From assembly GCA_016841045.1 (NCBI GenBank), contig JAENZX010000015.1, positions 1 through 64,000 of the forward strand: a stretch of 64,000 nucleotides of DNA, given 5' to 3'. Made by a program: the position numbers and the translations under genes. Below are positions 24,054-34,438 of this stretch, one piece after another. Each line of letters starts with the position of its first letter. Position 1 is the first letter of the stretch. This DNA is from Thermincola carboxydiphila (lineage in GTDB: Bacteria; Bacillota; Thermincolia; Thermincolales; UBA2595). Below the pieces are notes generated by a model. It was not told the origin of the DNA, did not search any database, and saw only the letters and a list, made by a program, of their open reading frames with translations.

Positions 24054-25112
24054 CTATGCCAGTTTATTTTCCATATCAAAATACTTTCGTCCCCAGCCAA
24101 GAGCTACATTAACCAATGCAATCATTACCGGCACCTCGATAAGAGGACCAATTACGGCTGCAAAAGCCTGGCCGGACTCGATTCCAAAAACCGCAACCGC
24201 TACGGCTATCGCCAACTCGAAGTTGTTACTGGCCGCAGTGAAAGAAAGGCTGGTCGTCTGCGCGTAATTGACTCCTGCCTTTAGACTGAGGAAAAAGGAA
24301 ACACCGAACATTATTACAAAGTAAATTAACAGCGGAATAGCTATACGGACAACATCCATCGGCAATTTGACAATATAGCTGCCCTTGTAGGAGAACATAA
24401 CAACAATAGTAAACAGAAGTGCAATTAAAGCAAGAGGACTGATTTTGGGTACAAAAGTCTTTTCATACCATTCTTTGCCCTTTGCTGGTTCCAGGAATAG
24501 TCGGGTTAACATACCGGCAGCAAAAGGTATACCAAGGTAGATACCTACGCTCTTGGCTACTTCACCCATTGAAATATCAACTACAGCACCTGTAAGGCCA
24601 AATATTCCGGGAAGAACAGTAATAAAGACGTAGGCATATATCGAATAGAAGATAACCTGAAATATCGAATTAAAGGCCACCAGAGCTGCAGCATATTCAG
24701 AATCACCCTTGGCAAGACTGTTCCAGACTATTACCATGGCAATACACCGGGCAAGCCCGATTAAGATAAGGCCAACCATGTATTCGGGTCTATCCCCGAG
24801 TAATGCAATAGCTAAAATAAACATAAGAACAGGTCCGATAACCCAGTTTTGAACCAGTGACAAACCCAGAACTTTCGTATTCTTAAATACTTTTCCCAGT
24901 TCCCGGTAATTAACCTTCGCCAAGGGCGGGTACATCATTACGATAAGCCCCACAGCAATGGGTATAGAGGTAGTCCCAACAGACAACCTGTCTAAAAGAT
25001 CGGCCACTCCCGGGAAAATATACCCAACACCAACTCCGATGGCCATTGCAAGGAAAATCCATAACGTTAACAGTCTGTCCAACATAGATAGTTTAGCTTC
25101 TTTTTGCTGCAC
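24054..25112 (-). CDS. acr3: Arsenite efflux permease, ACR3 family
   Basis: A 352-residue, ten-helix carrier of the ACR3/bile-arsenite-riboflavin family, which extrudes As(III) from the cytoplasm using the proton gradient. ACR3 hallmarks are present: [21 protein letters not shown] with the essential Cys of helix 4, and [17 protein letters not shown]. It lies 34 bases after an arsR gene, so it forms a classical arsR-acr3 unit, and this is the firmest indication that the surrounding cluster deals with arsenic. Normal length, no UGA. Confidence 0.93.
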
Positions 25113-25146: not shown

Positions 25147-25557
25147 TTATTTAGCTTTCTGCTGCCTTTTTGTAAATGCCTCACATTTAGCTTTCTTTTG
25201 CTTATTTGCAAGTGTCTCACAAATGGACGGATCAGTTCTTACCATAGATTTTTGGAGACTTTCCACTTTCCTTCGAATAGGCGCTGCATAACTGCTTATT
25301 ACTTCCATATCTTCTGTTTCAAAAACATCCTTAAAAACACTGTCATTTAACGAATAATAAATCCATTTTCCCTCCCGGCTGTCTTTAACAAGCCCAGCCA
25401 GTCTGAGAATTTTAAGGTGATGAGAGATAGCGGGTTGAGACATATCTAATTTATCTATTATTTCACAAACACACATTTCATGTCCAGCAAGCATCTGTAT
25501 GATTTTCAACCTGGTCTCATCCCCAAGGGCTTTATAAAATTCCGCAATCTTTTTCAT
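25147..25557 (-). CDS. arsR: ArsR family repressor (CVC type)
   Basis: A 136-residue winged-helix repressor. The recognition region is SQPAISHHLKILRLAGLV, and the N-terminal side of the alpha-3 helix carries MCVCEIID, the CVC motif of As(III)-sensing ArsR proteins. The C-terminal tail is long, basic and has extra cysteines (SICETL, KAKCEAF). It precedes acr3 by 34 bases. It should release the operator upon As(III) binding. Confidence 0.9.
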   Translation of the reverse strand: MKKIAEFYKALGDETRLKIIQMLAGHEMCVCEIIDKLDMSQPAISHHLKILRLAGLVKDSREGKWIYYSLNDSVFKDVFETEDMEVISSYAAPIRRKVESLQKSMVRTDPSICETLANKQKKAKCEAFTKRQQKAK

Positions 25558-25698: not shown

Positions 25699-25714
25699 AC
25701 CCGCAACTGCGGGT
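25699..25714 (-). promoter_or_regulatory. Hairpin: terminator or C-terminal SECIS
   Basis: A 6-base stem ACCCGC/GCGGGT with loop AGTT starts 12 bases after the TGA at 25727-25729. The T run after it makes it a good terminator, but the loop distance (18 bases from UGA) and the G in the loop also satisfy the bacterial SECIS pattern. Confidence 0.6.
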
Positions 25715-25720
25715 AATTTG

Positions 25721-26548
25721 TTAACTTCAACAGGAAGAACTGTCTGAACTGGTCTGGCAGCATCCTCCAGCTTGAGTATCTGTATTTTCTTTTCTACGCT
25801 TACCTGCAAAGAATTTTTGAAGATTTTCAGGTACTTCTGTCCTTACTTCAGAATCTGCGTTTCCCCTGGTTCCCCCATATACTTCCCGCAAGATAGCATC
25901 AATGATCATACCTTTTGGCGGAGCGGTATATTCTTTGCCCTGATATGTCCAAATCCGGCAGTCAACACTGTCACCGCACAGGTCACCACAAGAATCACAT
26001 AGAGCTTCTTTGACCTCCAACTGAATATCCTGCCCATTTATTCTAATAGTTGGCGAACTTACAAAGCCTAAATTACGGGCTTGTTCTTCGGATTGAATAT
26101 GTATCTTTATAACATTCACTTCAACGCCGGTCGTCTTTAAAACCTGTGCCACTTCCGTTATGGCTTCATCCAGATTGGATTCTGTTGACTGACACCACTT
26201 ACAAACGCTCAGGTCAAGGTACATAAATTCTATGTCCAGATTTCTTCGTATCGATTGAGATTGTTCAATTTCTTTTTCCTTGGAAAGCGGTTGCATATAT
26301 TTTTGGATTTCCTGAAGTATATCTTCTTCCTTAGGTCGTTGGCTGCATGTGCCTTGATTTGAGTAAATCACACTACCATTTACGATCACCTGATAAATAC
26401 CGTTATGCCCTTCTTTTAGTTCCGCATTTATTCCAAACTTGTTTTTGATTGATGCCGCCAAACCGGAGGCTAAAGAAAGGAAGCCTCACTCAACACAATA
26501 GGTAATTTCAACATTTACATCTCTCGTTACATTACTTGAATCGCTCAT
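25721..26548 (-). CDS. Selenoprotein: SelW/Rdx-DUF2703 fusion
   Basis: A 275-residue fusion read through a TGA at 26486-26488. Residues 1-75 form a Rdx (SelW/SelT-like) domain, VEITYCVEUGFLSLASG, whose CxxU redox site puts U at residue 21; without recoding the frame has no credible start and loses half the redox motif. Residues about 85-240 form a DUF2703 domain with CKWCQ, a CDSCGDLCGDSVDCR cluster and PPKGMIIDAILREVYGG. The C-terminus is Cys-rich (GGCCQTSS...SSSC) and then meets a second TGA (25727-25729) followed by AGT TAA, which could give a terminal CUS. ATG at 26548 follows AGGGGGAT. It lies between the DUF2703 paralog and arsR-acr3. Likely a thiol/selenol protein handling arsenic; the first Sec is firm, the second tentative. 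Confidence 0.88.
26454..26470 (-). promoter_or_regulatory. SECIS candidate of Rdx-DUF2703 gene
   Basis: The hairpin GCCtCC-GGTTT-GGcGGC begins 15 bases after the TGA and presents a GG-starting loop about 21 bases from it, in the range for bacterial SECIS elements. Confidence 0.6.
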
Positions 26549-26684
26549 AACTATCCCCCTGTTCATATAATTGCACCGGCATTTCAATGCCCTTCATTGA
26601 GCCCACAAAAATTTGATGTGCAGAAAAAGCGGGCACTCTGTTGAACCCACCAACTTTTTCTTTGTTACTGTGATCAAATTGGTG

Positions 26685-27122
26685 TTAGCAGCAACCACTA
26701 CTATTACAACAGCCGGAATTTACCGTCGGCGCTTTTTTGGTTTCTTCTATACCTAATACCTTGAATGCCGCCTGCCGGATGGCCTTGGCAGGTATGTCTT
26801 CATACTCGTAGCCTTCATATTTTATAGTTCGGCAGTAAGTTTCGTTTCCCAGTAAAGCAGTACAGGAATCACAGTAGTTCTCAGATACCTCGATATCTAA
26901 AATCTCTTCAATGGGAACTCCGTTAAAGAGGATAGTATTTGATTGAGGAATTTGGGTATCGTCAAGTTTGGTCTCAAACCATTCTACCTCAATCCCCAGT
27001 GGTTGTAAGGCTCTGTTTAATCTTTTTACTTCCTGATTAAGATTTTCACCCGTATCATAACAACGGTTGCAGGTCTCCCCTGCCACATCAAGGTGCTTCC
27101 ATTCAATTTTTAGTTTTTTCAT
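26685..27122 (-). CDS. DUF2703 family protein, all-Cys paralog
   Basis: A 145-residue DUF2703 protein. It starts KKLKIEWKHLDVAGETCNRCYDTG with a CxxC, has ENYCDSCTALLGNETYC in the middle, and ends in SGCCNSSGCC before a TAA stop. The terminal GCC aligns with the SSC-TGA and GSC-TGA ends of its two larger paralogs, so Cys occupies the place where they may carry Sec. The thioredoxin-like fold of the family is inferred. AGGAGG precedes the start. Probable role: thiol-based binding or reduction of a metalloid. Confidence 0.85.
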   Translation of the reverse strand: MKKLKIEWKHLDVAGETCNRCYDTGENLNQEVKRLNRALQPLGIEVEWFETKLDDTQIPQSNTILFNGVPIEEILDIEVSENYCDSCTALLGNETYCRTIKYEGYEYEDIPAKAIRQAAFKVLGIEETKKAPTVNSGCCNSSGCC

Positions 27123-27291
27123 TGTTATACCTCCTCATATAGTGTTTCAATAAATAATGACGGAGGTTTTAACAAAAGGACGCACTTTTTTAACACTTCA
27201 TGCATGAAAATTTATTTTTGACCTTATCTTTATAACATAGATCTATTATGTTACCTGCATTATCTGATTTAACTTCACACCGCTTGAAGAG

Positions 27292-27393
27292 TTATAATAA
27301 ACTATACTGCATGCCAGGTTCGTACAAATATGATAATTCCCGCTTTCCATCAAGATACATGAATTCGATGTCCAAACGTTCTGTCATACTCAT
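27292..27393 (-). pseudogene. N-terminal remnant of a DUF2703 gene
   Basis: A 33-codon ORF with GGAGG before its ATG begins MSMTERLDIEFMYLDG, matching NLDIEFMYLDLS in the Rdx-DUF2703 protein, then diverges and stops at TAA. The CxxC that should follow is missing. TGTCAA at 27430-27435 (TTGACA on the minus strand) suggests a promoter still sits upstream. It is most simply a truncated duplicate of the DUF2703 domain. Confidence 0.6.
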
Positions 27394-27479
27394 AATCAAC
27401 CTCCATTTAAAAAATTTAGTATTGTTTGTTGTCAATTATGTAGACGAATATTCACCGATAGGACGCAGTATTTTATATT

Positions 27480-28079
27480 TTACTCTCGCTCCTTATGACA
27501 GTATCCGCAGCTGTCACCTTTATGCTGGTATTCAAGAATATTTCCCAGACTGTCGAATTCAAAATGACAACACTCGAGAAACATCTCTCTAAGCTTTGCC
27601 CTCGCCCTTTGAACTCTTGATTTAACCCCTGAATAAGATATCCCGAGTTTTTCTGCCATTTCCTTCTGGGATAACCCGCGAAAATGTGACAATATTATTA
27701 CCTCTTTATACTTATCGGGCAGATTATTAATCATCGGTTCGAGACATGCGGTCATATCATCATTAAAATCATCACCTTCATCAAACTCATCGGACTGTTT
27801 ATCTGGCATTTCTTCATTTAGCCCTGATAACTCTCCTACGGCTTTCCTTCTGCGATAATAATCGGTAATAGCATTTCGGGTAATCTGGTATATCCAGGCC
27901 TGGAGTCTATCTTCATTCTTAAGCTTATAAATTTTATCGTGAATCTTGCAGAAGACGTCCTGAAGAATATCTTCCACATCGTATTCGTTACTCACCCTTT
28001 TACGGATGAATCCCTTAAGACTGTTGCTAAATTGATTCCAAATCTGGTCTATCGATTCCCTCAATTCATCATTCCCCAT
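27480..28079 (-). CDS. sigZ: RNA polymerase sigma factor, SigZ type
   Basis: A group IV (ECF-like) sigma factor of about 199 residues. Region 2 (VEDILQDVFCKIHDKIYKL ... RLQAWIYQITRNAITDYYRR) and region 4 (LPDKYKEVIILSHFRGLSQKEMAEKLGISYSGVKSRVQRARAKL) are complete. The C-terminal tail has FLECCHFEFDSLGNILEY and ends CGYCHKE, a CC plus CxxC set that could sense thiol or metal stress. No anti-sigma gene is adjacent. The start is uncertain; 28079 is chosen since earlier codons enter the repeat-terminator at 28141. Its location inside the selenoprotein cluster suggests that it controls part of it. Confidence 0.85.
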   Translation of the reverse strand: MGNDELRESIDQIWNQFSNSLKGFIRKRVSNEYDVEDILQDVFCKIHDKIYKLKNEDRLQAWIYQITRNAITDYYRRRKAVGELSGLNEEMPDKQSDEFDEGDDFNDDMTACLEPMINNLPDKYKEVIILSHFRGLSQKEMAEKLGISYSGVKSRVQRARAKLREMFLECCHFEFDSLGNILEYQHKGDSCGYCHKERE

Positions 28080-28140
28080 TTCAAGGATACCAACGAATGT
28101 ATGGAAAAAGCTAAGCATATGGTAATGTGGTAACCCACCT

Positions 28141-28192
28141 GTAGACAAAAGGTTTTGCCGCAGTCACCTGCTGCAAAACCTTTTTCGTCTAC
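28141..28192 (-). terminator. Repeat-type terminator, copy A
   Basis: Long inverted repeat, GTAGACaAAAGGTTTTGC and its complement around a loop containing CAGTCACCTG. It separates the DUF5714 gene from sigZ. The same core recurs at 31204-31239 and as a half copy at 29601-29626. Confidence 0.75.
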
Positions 28193-28306
28193 AGTATCGA
28201 ATTGAATAGATAACCGGTTGCAAAAGTTCTTCTGTGATCTACTCCTTGTTTAATGTGATATCGGTGCGATATAATGTTCCTCAGCTTTCCCACCTCTGAT
28301 TATTTG

Positions 28307-28327
28307 ACCTGTTTATCCTAAACAGGT
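28307..28327 (-). promoter_or_regulatory. Hairpin after third UGA of DUF5714 gene
   Basis: A perfect 9-base stem (ACCTGTTTA) with loop GGA starts 15 bases after the TGA at 28343-28345. No T run follows, which makes a terminator less likely and a SECIS possible. Confidence 0.45.
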
Positions 28328-28330
28328 TCT

Positions 28331-29476
28331 TTAATATTCCCCTCAGGTTTTACACTCACCAACCGGTGCTTCAATGTTTTGTTTTTCCGAATAGGGCTGC
28401 GGGGAATGTATTTTGTCAGCCAGGGCCTTCACCTTTGACGCCCCAACGGTCATGGCAATGGCAACGGCTTCGTTTAATTCGGCTTCAGGGATGTTAAGTT
28501 CCTTTGCAACTGCAAAGCAATATTGAGTTCATGGTTCACAACCGGCAGCCAATGAAGCAGCCAGGGCAATCAAATGCTTTGTCTTTCGGCCCAATATACC
28601 TTCCTGCCCATAGATGGATGAATGAAACTGGTCATATGCATTGAACATATTGTTTTCACCTCCTGCCGGAACAGATTCCTCTCTTTGTTTATAATAAGGA
28701 CACTTATCCATTCTGCACCCATGAGGATGACGCTCAACATGCATACAAACAGTTATTTTTCCAGGTAACGGCAGGGATACATTTAAGTAATCTTTGACCA
28801 ACTTAACCGACTCGTAGAGAGCAGTTCTGACAAAGTTTTTGCAGCAGCACGGACCTGTTTGATCTGCAATAGCATTTACTATTTTACCTACAACTCTCAT
28901 CGTAGCTGCTGTTTCCTGATTCTTGGGACATGCGGCACCTAAAATAACACTAAAGCAGGCTCCAATTGCCGGAGCCACTCCACAAACTCCTGTTAGTCCG
29001 CAGTAACCCCCAATCGCCTGTTTCCTTGTCCGATTAAACACTTCATCGATTTGTTCGTTTGATATTTTGATAGTTCCTTCATTTTTTATTGCAGCCATCA
29101 AAGCACCCGCAGCGATCCATGCATTTTCGCAGCCTAGCATGGGTACTTTGTCAATATAGCCCATAAGAGTTTCCGCAATCTCAAAAGGATTGCGTGACTC
29201 TGAATTTAAAACAAATCCCTTTATTGTATCGAAAACACCCTTACCATGACACTCATCACAAATATAATGACCATTGGGGCAACTAATATTAGCAAAGTCT
29301 GCTTTCCCACAGCGAAAACAAATAAGTTTTTTGCCGCTATCAAAATACTCCAGTTTAGTGCCACAGATTTGGCAGTCTTCTGTATTAATTTCTGTCTGAT
29401 GTTGACCAGCATCGTTACCAGGGCCTCAACAACCTGTCGGTTCAGCATCATCAAGGTTCTTTAACTCCTCAACCAC
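28331..29476 (-). CDS. Selenoprotein: Zn-ribbon/DUF5714/AhpD-like
   Basis: One gene spanning two or three in-frame TGA codons. From GTG at 29476 (AAGGTG upstream): U17 in PTGCUGP (TGA 29426-29428); a zinc-ribbon region EDCQICG, LICFRCG, CPNGHYICDECHG (about 29-75); a DUF5714 domain with GGYCGLTGVCG, GPCCCKNF and CRMDKCPYY; then an AhpD/carboxymuconolactone-decarboxylase-like domain HLIALAASLAAGCEPUTQYCFAV with U316 in a CxxU site (TGA 28529-28531), followed by AELNEAVAIAMTVGA. A third TGA (28343-28345) follows GECKT; reading it as Sec would give CKTUGEY and a TAA at 28331, otherwise the protein ends at 28343 with 377 residues. Read conventionally, this locus would be three meaningless fragments. 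Role: probably a peroxidase/disulfide-type redox enzyme for the cluster. Confidence 0.87.
28502..28517 (-). promoter_or_regulatory. SECIS candidate for U316
   Basis: CTTTGC-AGTT-GCAAAG hairpin, loop 17 bases after the TGA at 28529-28531, with G in the second loop position. Confidence 0.7.
29398..29413 (-). promoter_or_regulatory. SECIS candidate for U17
   Basis: Short stem GATG/CATC with loop CTGGTCAA begins 12 bases after the TGA at 29426-29428. The loop holds GGUC, as in the E. coli fdhF element, but the stem is short. Confidence 0.5.
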
Positions 29477-29600
29477 TTATTTCACCTTCTTTTATATACC
29501 CAACATAGGTATATGTTTTATCTAATTATATTAGACATACATGAAGTTTTCAATGGTGATTAACGTCCGCTAAGCCGCCAATTCTTTAGCCCCTTCATAT

Positions 29601-29626
29601 ACTGCTGCAAAACCTTTTTAGTCTAC
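29601..29626. repeat. Half copy C of the repeat-terminator
   Basis: CTGCTGCAAAACCTTTTT-GTCTAC matches one arm of the elements at 28141 and 31204. The other arm is absent. It lies between the DGC gene and the DUF5714 gene and suggests decay of a duplicated terminator. Confidence 0.6.
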
Positions 29627-29683
29627 CATTCGCAAATACGCACTTGAAATCAGGGGAGTCAAAATTGGTGTCTTAGTTTTAAC

Positions 29684-30034
29684 CTACTTCCTACCCAATA
29701 ATCTATCGATCACTTCCTGCACTAAGTATACCTCTTCATCTATATTTAATAACTCTTCATACTTTTCATTATTCTTTGGATCAAAATCCTTGGTAATAAT
29801 GATTTCTTCATGTTGTTTAATTCTAGAAGACTCAAATTCCTTGGAAGCACATTTTGCTGGGCAGCCATTTAATGCAATATACTTTTCGTTAACACCACTT
29901 TCGTTGTCAAGAGGTAAACTACTTAAATGGGGTAGTACACGTATTAATTCGTCATCAACGAAAAATTCAGCTACCGTTTTTGTCATCATACTGACGTTAC
30001 AACGGCCTTGGCAAGGGAAAATTCCAATATTCAT
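29684..30034 (-). CDS. Putative zinc-binding protein, DGC domain
   Basis: A 116-residue protein with the DGC-family layout: an N-terminal IGIFPCQGRCNVSMMTK motif and a second LNGCPAKCASKEF motif, together four cysteines that probably bind Zn or another thiophilic ion. The rest is charged and helical. DGC proteins frequently accompany selenoprotein, arsenic or mercury genes, but no reaction is established. It lies between a DUF2703 gene and the DUF5714 selenoprotein, on the same strand, and starts after GAGGTGGAG. Confidence 0.82.
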   Translation of the reverse strand: MNIGIFPCQGRCNVSMMTKTVAEFFVDDELIRVLPHLSSLPLDNESGVNEKYIALNGCPAKCASKEFESSRIKQHEEIIITKDFDPKNNEKYEELLNIDEEVYLVQEVIDRLLGRK

Positions 30035-30129
30035 AATTGCTCCACCTCAATTCTACTGTGCCTCTTGGACAATCGTTCATAGCATAACATCGAACATAAT
30101 CACAGCCATAAAAATAAATTGTCATAAAT

Positions 30130-30146
30130 ATCCGTAAACTACGGAT
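30130..30146 (-). promoter_or_regulatory. Hairpin after terminal UGA of DUF2703 gene
   Basis: ATCCGTA-GTT-TACGGAT, a perfect 7-base stem, starts 13 bases after the TGA at 30160-30162; its G-first loop is 20 bases from the UGA. Only a weak T stretch follows, so SECIS is as plausible as terminator. Confidence 0.5.
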
Positions 30147-30153
30147 TATCTTG

Positions 30154-30963
30154 TCAGTTTCAACATGAGCCAGAATTGCCTTGGGAAGTGGAGGTGCTAA
30201 AGCGACTATTAACTTCTTTCAAATGTACATTTTCGTTGCGTTCTTTTGCTGCAAAAAACCTTTTAAGATTTTCTGGCACACCTTTCGTTTTAGAAGGAGT
30301 ATCGGCATTATCCTTAGAACCCACATATACTTCCCGTAAGATAGCATCAATGATCATACCCTTTGGCGGAGCATTATATTCCTTACCCTGATATGTCCAA
30401 AGCCGGCAGTCAACGTCCTCACCACAAAGATTACTGCATGACTCACAGGAGCTTCCTTTTACATCTAACTGAATGTCATTTTCGTTTATACGAATTGTAG
30501 GTGAAATTTCAAACCCGAGTTCGTAGGCCTGTTGCTCAGACTGAACTTGGATTTTCTTTACTGCTACATCGACCCCAGTTAACTTAAGAATATTGGCTGT
30601 TTCCGAAACTGCTTCATCCAAATTGGTTTCCGTGTCCTGACACCATTTGCAAATGCTTAGATCAAGGTATAGAAACTCAATTACCAGACTTCTTTTAGCT
30701 TCATTTGAGCAGCTCACTTTTTCTTTTATTTCCTCATCTTTCCCAATATCAAAATGTCTTTCATATGCCGCAAGCAGTCCTACCTTATATTCTTGTTCGG
30801 CACCTTCTGGAATATAATTTTTTCGTTCCACTATTTCGAACAATTTGTCTGCAGCTTTTCCACCCACTAAGTCAAGGCTCCTTACATACTGAAATGCCTC
30901 ATCTACTCTGGTCAACCCAATCACTTGGCCACCGACGTTTAGTTTATATATTTGGGGACTCAT
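30154..30963 (-). CDS. DUF2703 protein, candidate C-terminal Sec
   Basis: A protein of 267 residues up to a TGA at 30160-30162, or 269 if that codon is Sec (ending GSCUN before another TGA). Residues 1-75 (VIGLTRVDEAFQYVRSL ... GAEQEYKVGLLAAYE) match the whole 80-residue protein at 32.4-32.6 kb. Residues about 95-225 are DUF2703: LYLDLSICKWCQDTETNLDEA, SSCESCSNLCGEDVDCRLW and PPKGMIIDAILREVY, nearly identical in these blocks to the Rdx-DUF2703 protein. The terminal SC-TGA is shared with that paralog and is replaced by GCC in the short paralog. Part of the As/selenoprotein cluster; likely metalloid-thiol chemistry. Confidence 0.82.
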
Positions 30964-31203: not shown

Positions 31204-31239
31204 AAAGGTTTTGCCTCAGTCACCTGCTGCAAAACCTTT
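31204..31239 (-). terminator. Repeat-type terminator, copy B
   Basis: AAAGGTTTTGC hairpin with the conserved loop containing CAGTCACCTG, followed by T6 on the minus strand, 20 bases after the permease stop. Confidence 0.85.
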
Positions 31240-31258: not shown

Positions 31259-32275
31259 CTATCTCAAAACAAATGACCAGGCATTAAACAAATAACCGAT
31301 AATAATGATACCTACCGAAACTATAGCAGTAAAAATTGCTAGGAGTTTAGGCTTTACTACTTTACTAAGCAAAATTAGTGAAGGAAGCGATAACGCAGTA
31401 ACTGACATCATAAATTCTAATACAGTACCAATTCCCACATTCTTAGCAAATAATGCTTCTGCTATTGGTAAAGTTCCAAAGATATCTGCATACATTGGAA
31501 TACCCACGACAGTAGCAAGTATTATCGCAAACGGATTATTATCTCCAACCACATTTTCTATGATTGATTGAGGAATCCAATTGTGTATTACAGCTCCTAT
31601 TCCAACACCAATTAGAACATATAACCATACTCTTTTAATAATATCAATAACCTGGGTCTTTGAGTATGATATCCTTTCCTCACGTGTCATTTTAATAATT
31701 TCAGAATCAACATTTTCTATCTCTTTAACATAACCTTCCACATACTTTTCGAGGCCCAACTTATCAATAAGAGTTCCACCAATAACTGCTAAAACCAAAC
31801 CAACAACGACGTAAGCTATGGCTATTTTGGCTCCAAAGAAAGACATTAATAATAGTATTGATGCTAAATCTACAAGGGGGGAGGATATCAAAAACGAAAA
31901 AGTCACCCCTATCGGCAAGCCTGCCGATGTGAAACCGATAAATATCGGTATACTGGAGCAGCTTCAGAAAGGAGTAATAGTTCCTAATAAAGCTCCATAA
32001 ATATTTCCTTTGATACCCTTCATTCCACCAAGAATCTTCTTGGTTCTTTCAGGCGGGAAGTAACTTTGAATGTATGATATTAAAAAGATGAGCACCGATA
32101 ATAATATGAAAATCTTTATTGTATCATAGATAAAGAAATGAATACTTCCCCCCAGCTTCTCCTGGACGGATAAACCAAATACTCGCTCCACAACAAGTCT
32201 GACAGATTCTGAGAGCCATGTCATTCTTAAAATTTGATCATTCAGCCAACTGAAGATTTGAGTTACTATATTCAT
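31259..32275 (-). CDS. Selenoprotein permease, YraQ/DUF318-like
   Basis: A 338-residue permease read through a TGA at 31964-31966 (U104). The joined protein has about eight membrane helices. The junction reads GALLGTITPFUSCSSIPIFIGFTSAG, where the family normally has TPFCSCSSIP, so Sec takes the place of the first conserved Cys at the membrane-embedded motif; the second half carries the matching VVGIPMYADIFGTLPIAEALF. Split at the TGA, neither part would be functional and the second would lack a ribosome site. Related permeases export organoarsenicals or metals (ArsP-like). It has its own terminator and is preceded by an 80-residue gene on the same strand. Confidence 0.88.
31911..31949 (-). 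promoter_or_regulatory. Tandem hairpins after permease UGA
   Basis: Hairpin 1 (31934-31949, ACCGAT-ATTT-ATCGGT) is 14 bases from the TGA but lacks a G at the loop start. Hairpin 2 (31911-31928, ATCGGCA-GGCT-TGCCGAT) has a GG loop but lies 42 bases from the TGA. One of them, or both stacked, may serve as SECIS. Confidence 0.5.
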
Positions 32276-32357: not shown

Positions 32358-32606
32358 TTAACATCAGGATTTAGCTATAAAATTTTTATATGCCGCAAGC
32401 AGTGCTAATTTGTATTCTAGCTCTGCACCTGGTGGGATAAAATTTTTTTGCTTCACAATTTCTAATAGTTTTTCAGCAGCTTTTTCATCCCCTAAACCAA
32501 GGCCTTTAACAGCCTGAAAAGCCTCATCTACTCTGGTTAGCCCCACCTGTATGCCACCAGCCGTCAGCATATAAACCGGGTTTTTGGGGTCACAACATTG
32601 ACTCAT
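32358..32606 (-). CDS. 80-aa protein, N-domain of DUF2703 paralog
   Basis: An 80-residue protein up to a TGA at 32364-32366. It starts MSQCCDPKNPVYML with a vicinal CC and continues VGLTRVDEAFQAVKGLGL ... GAELEYKLALLAAYK, the same domain as the first 75 residues of the DUF2703 protein at 30154. If the TGA were Sec the protein would end KSUC at a TAA (32358); no clear hairpin supports this, so a plain stop at 32364 is equally or more likely. It lies between the CxxC mini-glutaredoxin and the permease. Function unknown. Confidence 0.75.
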
Positions 32607-33997: not shown

Positions 33998-34438
33998 CTA
34001 TTTGCCCTCCAACAATGCCTTTAATTTCGTGTTCATTTCTTCCTGGTTAATCACACCAACATAATTAAAGGTTGATTCACCTTTTGAGTTCAAAAAATAC
34101 GTAGTGGGAATATACTGAATCTGGTATTGAGCACATAACGCCTGATCAGCCGGGTCATTCACGTTTATATTAATAAATGCTACTTTCCCCTCAAATTTAG
34201 GTTTTAGCCACTGGAACACCCGTTCCATTTCTACACAGGACTGTCAGGTCGTGGAATGGAATAAGAGCCAAGCTGGCTGCCCCTTTTGTTTAGCCTGTTC
34301 GATTAAACCTGCAGCCTGGGAAACAGAACTGTTTGAAGAAAAATCTTGCTGGACATTTTCTGTTTTAACTCCTTTGGCGGCAATTAACGCAACCACCGCT
34401 GCAAGTAAAACCATCAACACTATTGCCTTTAACTTCAA
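33998..34438 (-). CDS. Selenoprotein thioredoxin-like, UxxC site
   Basis: A 146-residue membrane-anchored thioredoxin-fold protein read through a TGA at 34244-34246. Residues 4-21 are a signal anchor (AIVLMVLLAAVVALIAA). The active site is FHSTTUQSCVEME with U65 in the place of the first catalytic Cys; the second part has VAFININVNDPADQALC and the cis-Pro loop IQYIPTTYF. Both halves are needed for the fold, and the downstream piece alone has no signal or active site. TTG start with GGGGAGGG. A six-base stem with loop GGGT follows the UGA. It lies directly before ccdA, its likely electron partner. Confidence 0.93.
34212..34227 (-). promoter_or_regulatory. SECIS candidate of thioredoxin-like gene
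   Basis: TGGAAC-GGGT-GTTCCA hairpin; loop begins about 22 bases after the TGA with G first. This is the best SECIS match in the cluster. Confidence 0.75.

Follow-up and report, generated by a model that had tools for sequence, protein, structure and literature searches.

Results

Two DUF2703 genes are predicted to end in selenocysteine

Two DUF2703 genes of Thermincola carboxydiphila, here called A and B, very probably encode proteins with selenocysteine (Sec) as the penultimate residue, a terminal UGA being read as Sec one codon before the actual stop. Both lie in the window, which is the whole 64,000-nucleotide (nt) stretch of DNA analyzed (G000:C8:1-64000), from a Bacillota genome of 4.16 Mb. 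Three DUF2703 genes were found in this genome, all on the minus strand: A (25721..26548), the short paralog S (26685..27122) and B (30154..30963). With 129.7, 140.7 and 115.4 bits, respectively, all three exceed the Pfam cut-off of 23.6 bits for DUF2703 (PF10865). With TGA read as Sec (U), A is a fusion of a SelW-like Rdx domain with DUF2703, 275 amino acids (aa) long and with two Sec residues (Pfam: DUF2703, 7.6e-38; Rdx, 2e-10), and B carries an 80-aa N-terminal domain in front of DUF2703 (2.1e-33). Gene A ends ...SSSC-TGA-AGT-TAA (TGA 25727-25729, stop TAA 25721-25723), gene B ends ...SGSC-TGA-AAC-TGA (TGA 30160-30162, stop TGA 30154-30156), and gene S, a Cys form, ends SGCC-TAA (26685), just as the initial annotation had described. 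The predicted products, ...SSSC-U-S for A and ...SGSC-U-N for B, would correspond to the Cys-Cys-x ends of their relatives, with Sec in place of the second Cys. The Sec assignment is well supported computationally by the recoding signature, its conservation, compensatory changes in the stem, Cys counterparts and the Sec machinery. The latter comprises a tRNA-Sec at C28:28862 (73.9 bits, gathering score 47) and SelB at C17:31662-33548 (360 bits, cut-off 242).

Each terminal UGA would be served by its own bacterial Sec insertion sequence (SECIS) hairpin, located in the 3' untranslated region past the real stop codon. The putative element of A, ACCCGC[AGTT]GCGGGT (25699..25714, minus strand), has its loop 18 nt past the UGA and is followed by a U-run. 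That of B, ATCCGTA[GTT]TACGGAT (30130..30146, minus strand), has its loop at 20 nt and no U-run. The perfect stems, loop sequences and distances of 18 to 20 bases claimed initially were thus confirmed. Bacterial SECIS elements are stem-loops shortly downstream of the UGA with a small apical loop containing G (PMC1088965), a description that both loops satisfy. We then searched the window for perfect stems of at least 6 bp with a loop of 3 to 5 nt, 16 to 22 nt downstream of TGA. At chance level, such a hairpin follows 20 of the 2367 TGAs of the window (0.8%). Among TGA-ended frames of at least 100 codons it was present at 4 of 21, namely the internal Sec-UGAs of an ArsP and a CMD domain gene (see below) and the terminal UGAs of A and B; it was present at 2 of 78 frames ended by TAA or TAG. 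A general recoding of TGA was rejected, since 17 of the 21 TGA-ended frames of the window lack such a hairpin.

Relatives were searched in Bacillota, and a phylum search centred on Sedimentibacter gave the same genomes; Thermincola ferriacetica and two Firmicutes metagenome-assembled genomes are the named relatives of gene A. Four orthologs of A were available, L020, L021 and L022 (paired via identical proteins with genomes G002, G001 and G004) and L045 (from G007). All four, from the same family, end TGA-(AGT/AGC/AAA)-TAG and carry CCCGCA[GTT]TGCGGG at 19 nt. Homologs stopping at TAA or TAG directly after the Cys, the observation that was to count against Sec, were absent among the orthologs, and UGA, one codon, a stop and the hairpin were present in the four orthologs and in B. 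Gene B has diverged deeply from A (branch 0.68), yet it has retained this arrangement together with the loop and the spacing. The residue preceding Sec is variable: A and B alone have C, whereas L020 (GCT-U-K), L021 (KCT-U-S) and L045 (KCT-U-S) have T and L022 (SSG-U-S) has G.

A narrower filter, combining the stem with the loop motif [AG]?GT[TC]T?, was applied to the TGAs of the window and the relatives. It retained 27 of 16174, including all six terminal DUF2703 UGAs; about 18 of the 27 are Sec sites as judged from context (MbdU SSCU, CMD CEPU, FKYGUGYG and similar). Comparison of the six stems revealed two compensatory pairs between B and A (C-G to U-A), and 41 of 41 counted cells were paired. 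When the partners were slid by 1 to 3 columns, pairing was at most 54%. The shuffle control was modest (14 of 500 shuffles reached the observed pairing), which is expected for a set of six sequences. The six terminal sites were also used to build a covariance model (R1), which in ten related genomes recovered all six at E <=2.2e-6, with the next best site at 0.16. The strongest of the remaining weak sites, in G003 and G006, do not represent comparable gene ends.

Cysteine in place of the predicted terminal Sec in relatives

A Cys in the place of the TGA had been proposed for relatives and was found: relatives in family f14 end KCC-x-stop, and in S and its orthologs the stop comes directly after CC. 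When the proteins are aligned, the terminal Sec is matched by the final Cys of S and of its ortholog, and aligning the tails of the CTU orthologs requires a one-residue gap. Paralog S has no hairpin at the corresponding place. More generally, a hairpin 10 to 30 nt past the stop was present in 1 of 22 Cys-ended relatives versus 6 of 6 UGA-ended genes (Fisher 1.9e-5, a value inflated by relatedness). Altogether, 32 of 78 DUF2703 proteins have CC at the C-terminus or no more than two residues from it. Of these 32, 31 come from genomes not scored as lacking SelB, versus 27 of 37 proteins without a Cys tail, a comparison uncorrected for phylogeny.

In a tree of the 78 proteins, B groups with the A orthologs (99/78). 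A larger group adds a clade ending KCC-D/N/K/E/G-stop and an Rdx-DUF2703 fusion from G152 ending KCCGK. Most simply, a single exchange of Cys for Sec at the second position of an older CC-x ending would have taken place in the Thermincola family, with the branching order not firm. A phage search for relatives and a viral-contig search for relatives of gene B returned none, and a plasmid search yielded two partial matches (Peptoclostridium and Bacillaceae). At 27300-27400 (minus strand) the window holds a short remnant resembling a DUF2703 start (TERLDIEFMYLDG), apparently a decayed fourth copy.

Termination and recoding at the terminal UGAs

The UGAs might be ordinary stops followed by rho-independent terminators or 3'-end stabilizers, which we consider very unlikely. 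This explanation draws on the hairpin of A: UUUUUUU comes after it, and it was scored as a terminator. The suspicion voiced initially, that one hairpin is a plain terminator, fits A with its seven U, does not suit B and is insufficient even for A. The hairpin of B has no U-run and was not called a terminator on its strand. In the orthologs the U-runs are often broken (GGGTTTTCTTT, GGGTTTTTAATA), but the stem, the loop and the distance from the UGA are retained. Furthermore, 21 of 22 equivalent Cys-ended genes have no hairpin at that place, and a plain stop leaves unexplained why UGA is used in six of six cases with a second stop one codon further. Nor is the hairpin sequence a common terminator in the host genome. 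A recurrent genomic terminator was rejected as an explanation when the pattern CCCGCAGTTNGCGGG, with one mismatch allowed, found one other site in 4.16 Mb (the pattern comprises 15 bases; the 14-base version of the window does not fit it). A plain terminator as the sole explanation was rejected on account of the U-run-free hairpin of B together with the hairpin-poor Cys relatives. The hairpin of A may serve as both SECIS element and terminator.

A variant of the Sec reading takes the UGA as a selenium-dependent switch, in which the short and the Sec-ending products both matter and the hairpin of A acts as SECIS element and terminator. Recoding by way of a SECIS element is generally incomplete, a product cut short at the UGA would be only two residues shorter and, in A and B, would still have a C-terminal Cys, and the hairpin of A does join both kinds of feature. 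However, B has no terminator feature, and a role for the truncated form is speculation; we regard such a switch as unlikely.

Several points weigh against Sec at these ends. The hairpin of A also resembles a terminator. The six sequences come from five genomes and one family, so that their conservation partly reflects shared ancestry. Just two residues hinge on the UGA, and ordinary termination would therefore leave a nearly complete protein. Since the position before Sec varies, the thioredoxin reductase-like vicinal pair suggested initially is weakened: conservation extends to the terminal Sec but not to a Cys next to it (CU, CTU or SGU), and a Cys-Sec pair as a conserved feature was rejected in view of the preceding residues C, C, T, T, T and G. 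Finally, the terminal Sec is a prediction from sequence, and the function is suggested by gene neighbourhood and a fold model of low confidence.

Further candidate Sec codons at the locus

Two features go beyond the initial annotation, a second putative Sec codon in A and a terminal UGA in the MbdU-like gene between A and B. Gene A extends upstream through another UGA into its SelW-like Rdx domain, which makes A a candidate double selenoprotein. This putative Sec codon (26486..26488, minus strand) lies in the motif ITYCVEUGF (CxxU). The frame and the Rdx match run through it, the TGA is kept in the orthologs, and the sequence CC[GGTTT]GG follows with its loop 21 nt after the UGA. The Rdx-DUF2703 fusion of G152 (L092), whose tail is Cys-Cys-Gly-Lys, has CGA (Arg) at the Rdx Sec codon, one transition from TGA, and a remnant resembling a SECIS element, GCTTCC[AGTCT]GGAGGC; a search in the order of G152 added no further Rdx-DUF2703 fusions. 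At 32364-32606 (minus strand), an 80-aa open reading frame (VGLTRVDEAFQAV...) is related to the N-terminal domain of gene B but stands alone; it has no Pfam or NCBIfam match.

Between A and B lies an MbdU-like gene (28331..29476, minus strand), predicted to encode a DUF5714-CMD selenoprotein with three in-frame UGAs (29426-29428, 28529-28531 and 28343-28345). Reading through the last of these yields CKT-U-GEY-stop. It is followed by a 9-bp hairpin, ACCTGTTTA[GGA]TAAACAGGT (28307..28327, minus strand), which has no U-run and is conserved in three relatives. These relatives (L145, L147 and L148, from G008, G004 and G007) end CKT-UGA-AGT-TAA (CKTUS-stop) and have the hairpin CCTGTTTA[GG(A/T)]TAAACAGG, again without a U-run and in G008 formed partly by G-U pairs. 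The CKT-U tail is present with or without the CMD domain. Because the CKT-UGA tail and its hairpin are kept in relatives, this second, unrelated protein of the locus probably also ends in a terminal Sec, a prediction that has passed fewer tests than that for A and B.

The hairpins of internal UGAs, among them undisputed Sec sites close to A and B, resemble the terminal ones. The putative SECIS element of the internal CMD Sec-UGA (CEPU), CTTTGC[AGTT]GCAAAG (28502..28517, minus strand), shares its loop with the terminal element of A at a nearly equal spacing (17 nt), and the Rdx elements have the loops [GGTTT] or [AGTTT] at 21 nt. The hairpins of an ArsP and a thioredoxin-like gene (20 and 22 nt) have stem size and spacing in common with the terminal elements. 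In the ArsP-type permease, the UGA at 31964-31966 (minus strand) would place Sec in TPFUSCSSIP and is followed by ACCGAT[ATTT]ATCGGT; in the L021 homolog this residue is Cys (TPFCSCSS). In the thioredoxin-like protein, the UGA at 34244-34246 (minus strand) would create a UxxC motif (TTUQSC) with the hairpin TGGAAC[GGGT]GTTCCA, and the L021 homolog has CQPC. The intergenic regions of the window also contain near-identical copies of GCAGTCACCTGCTGCAAAACCTTT at 28160-28183 and 31216-31239 (plus strand), which belong to a palindrome-like repeat with a partial copy near 29600.

Arsenic context and possible function

Gene A is followed by adjoining genes for an ArsR-type regulator (25147..25557, minus strand; Pfam HTH_5, NCBIfam HTH_metalloreg) and an ACR3 arsenite efflux transporter (24054..25112, minus strand; TIGR00832, 462 bits versus a cut-off of 283). 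At L020 the order is A, an arsR-like gene, an acr3-like gene, arsD and arsA; L021 has arsM nearby, and Peptoclostridium has arsR-DUF2703-ACR3-arsC. Beside arsA at L020 (9812-10183, plus strand), a small protein with an in-frame UGA (GSGGUNCSGGDCGP) is a further candidate selenoprotein. One study places a DUF2703 gene of Rhodococcus within an ars cluster and proposes that its product serves ArsC as thioredoxin partner (PMC6514093), and another proposes a thioredoxin-like fold for DUF2703 (PMC3091736). In the literature covered, which does not include most subscription journals, DUF2703 is named in these two papers only, and Sec is not reported where they discuss it. No solved structure related to DUF2703 by sequence was found. 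The AlphaFold model of A is poor (mean predicted local distance difference test score [pLDDT], 61.6), with a disordered tail (pLDDT <40). Its SelW-like domain matches SelW-related proteins with Z of about 12, and thioredoxin-fold matches of DUF2703 are weak, with Z up to 6.9.

An arsenic-related role of A and B is, on balance, probable. The last 15 to 20 residues could form a flexible Cys/Sec arm that partners the CxxC of a thioredoxin-fold DUF2703 and, in A, additionally works with the CxxU of Rdx. Such an arm would either relay electrons or bind As(III) or methyl-As(III) through soft ligands at its tip, and would feed the adjacent ACR3 efflux system, which is regulated by ArsR. The data fit electron relay to the CxxC and As(III) holding alike. 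That Sec is inserted and the tail is a metal(loid) ligand, as in ArsD-like As(III) delivery, and not a redox center, is a possibility to which we give somewhat less than even weight. It agrees with the Cys-rich tail (GGCC...SSSCU), whose spacing is not conserved and which is disordered in the model, with arsD, arsA, acr3 and arsM as neighbours, and with the CKTU tail on a second protein type at the same locus; but the conserved CxxC of DUF2703 and its weak thioredoxin-fold matches suit redox chemistry at least equally. As a tentative proposal, the C(x)T-Sec-Ser-stop tail and its post-stop SECIS element might be a portable module on at least two unrelated arsenic-locus proteins of Thermincola and relatives (Rdx-DUF2703 and MbdU-like DUF5714), equipping them alike with a selenol tip that transfers or reduces metalloids.

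Discussion

Animal thioredoxin reductase ends Gly-Cys-Sec-Gly, with a penultimate Sec. As predicted for A and B, the penultimate Sec of this enzyme and of selenoprotein S (PMC3628699) sits on a flexible tail; A and B are not homologous to either, have no flavoprotein domain, would use a bacterial type of SECIS element and do not conserve the vicinal Cys. Terminal Cys-Sec proteins are known as KCU-star (NF033934) and the SaoC Cys-Cys-COOH selenoprotein (NF040734) (PMC13188914). They share the CU motif, C-terminal by name, with A and B; these differ in having one residue after Sec and a variable residue before it, and neither NF033934 nor NF040734 gave an NCBIfam match in A, S or B at E <=0.01. 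A selenoprotein form of hypothetical protein DF was predicted in Desulfosediminicola flagellatus (deep-Sep; PMC12013277). In A and B, the DF model (NF049942) matches the DUF2703 core with 57.1 and 45.1 bits, under the curated cut-off of 70, and the match stops at the core, leaving the terminal Sec outside. The N-terminal domain of A shares CxxU and a SelW-related fold with the SelW-like/Rdx family (PF10262), from which A differs by the DUF2703 fusion and the second, terminal Sec. The MbdU-like protein has a CU site at its start, like the metal-binding double selenoprotein MbdU (NF045648), but scores 413.6 bits over profile positions 7-287 of 468, under the cut-off of 600, and carries a CMD domain and, at its end, a CKT-U tail beyond the matched part.

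Gene callers miss terminal Sec codons, since a gene truncated at such a codon appears complete. Standard annotation thus removes the likely reactive residue of A and B, and the MbdU-like gene is likely a further case. A simple screen suggests itself: a TGA, a few codons, a stop and a hairpin loop 17 to 24 nt on, with Cys-Cys ends in relatives. In these organisms, the case would tie Sec to arsenic-resistance loci and offers a testable function for DUF2703.

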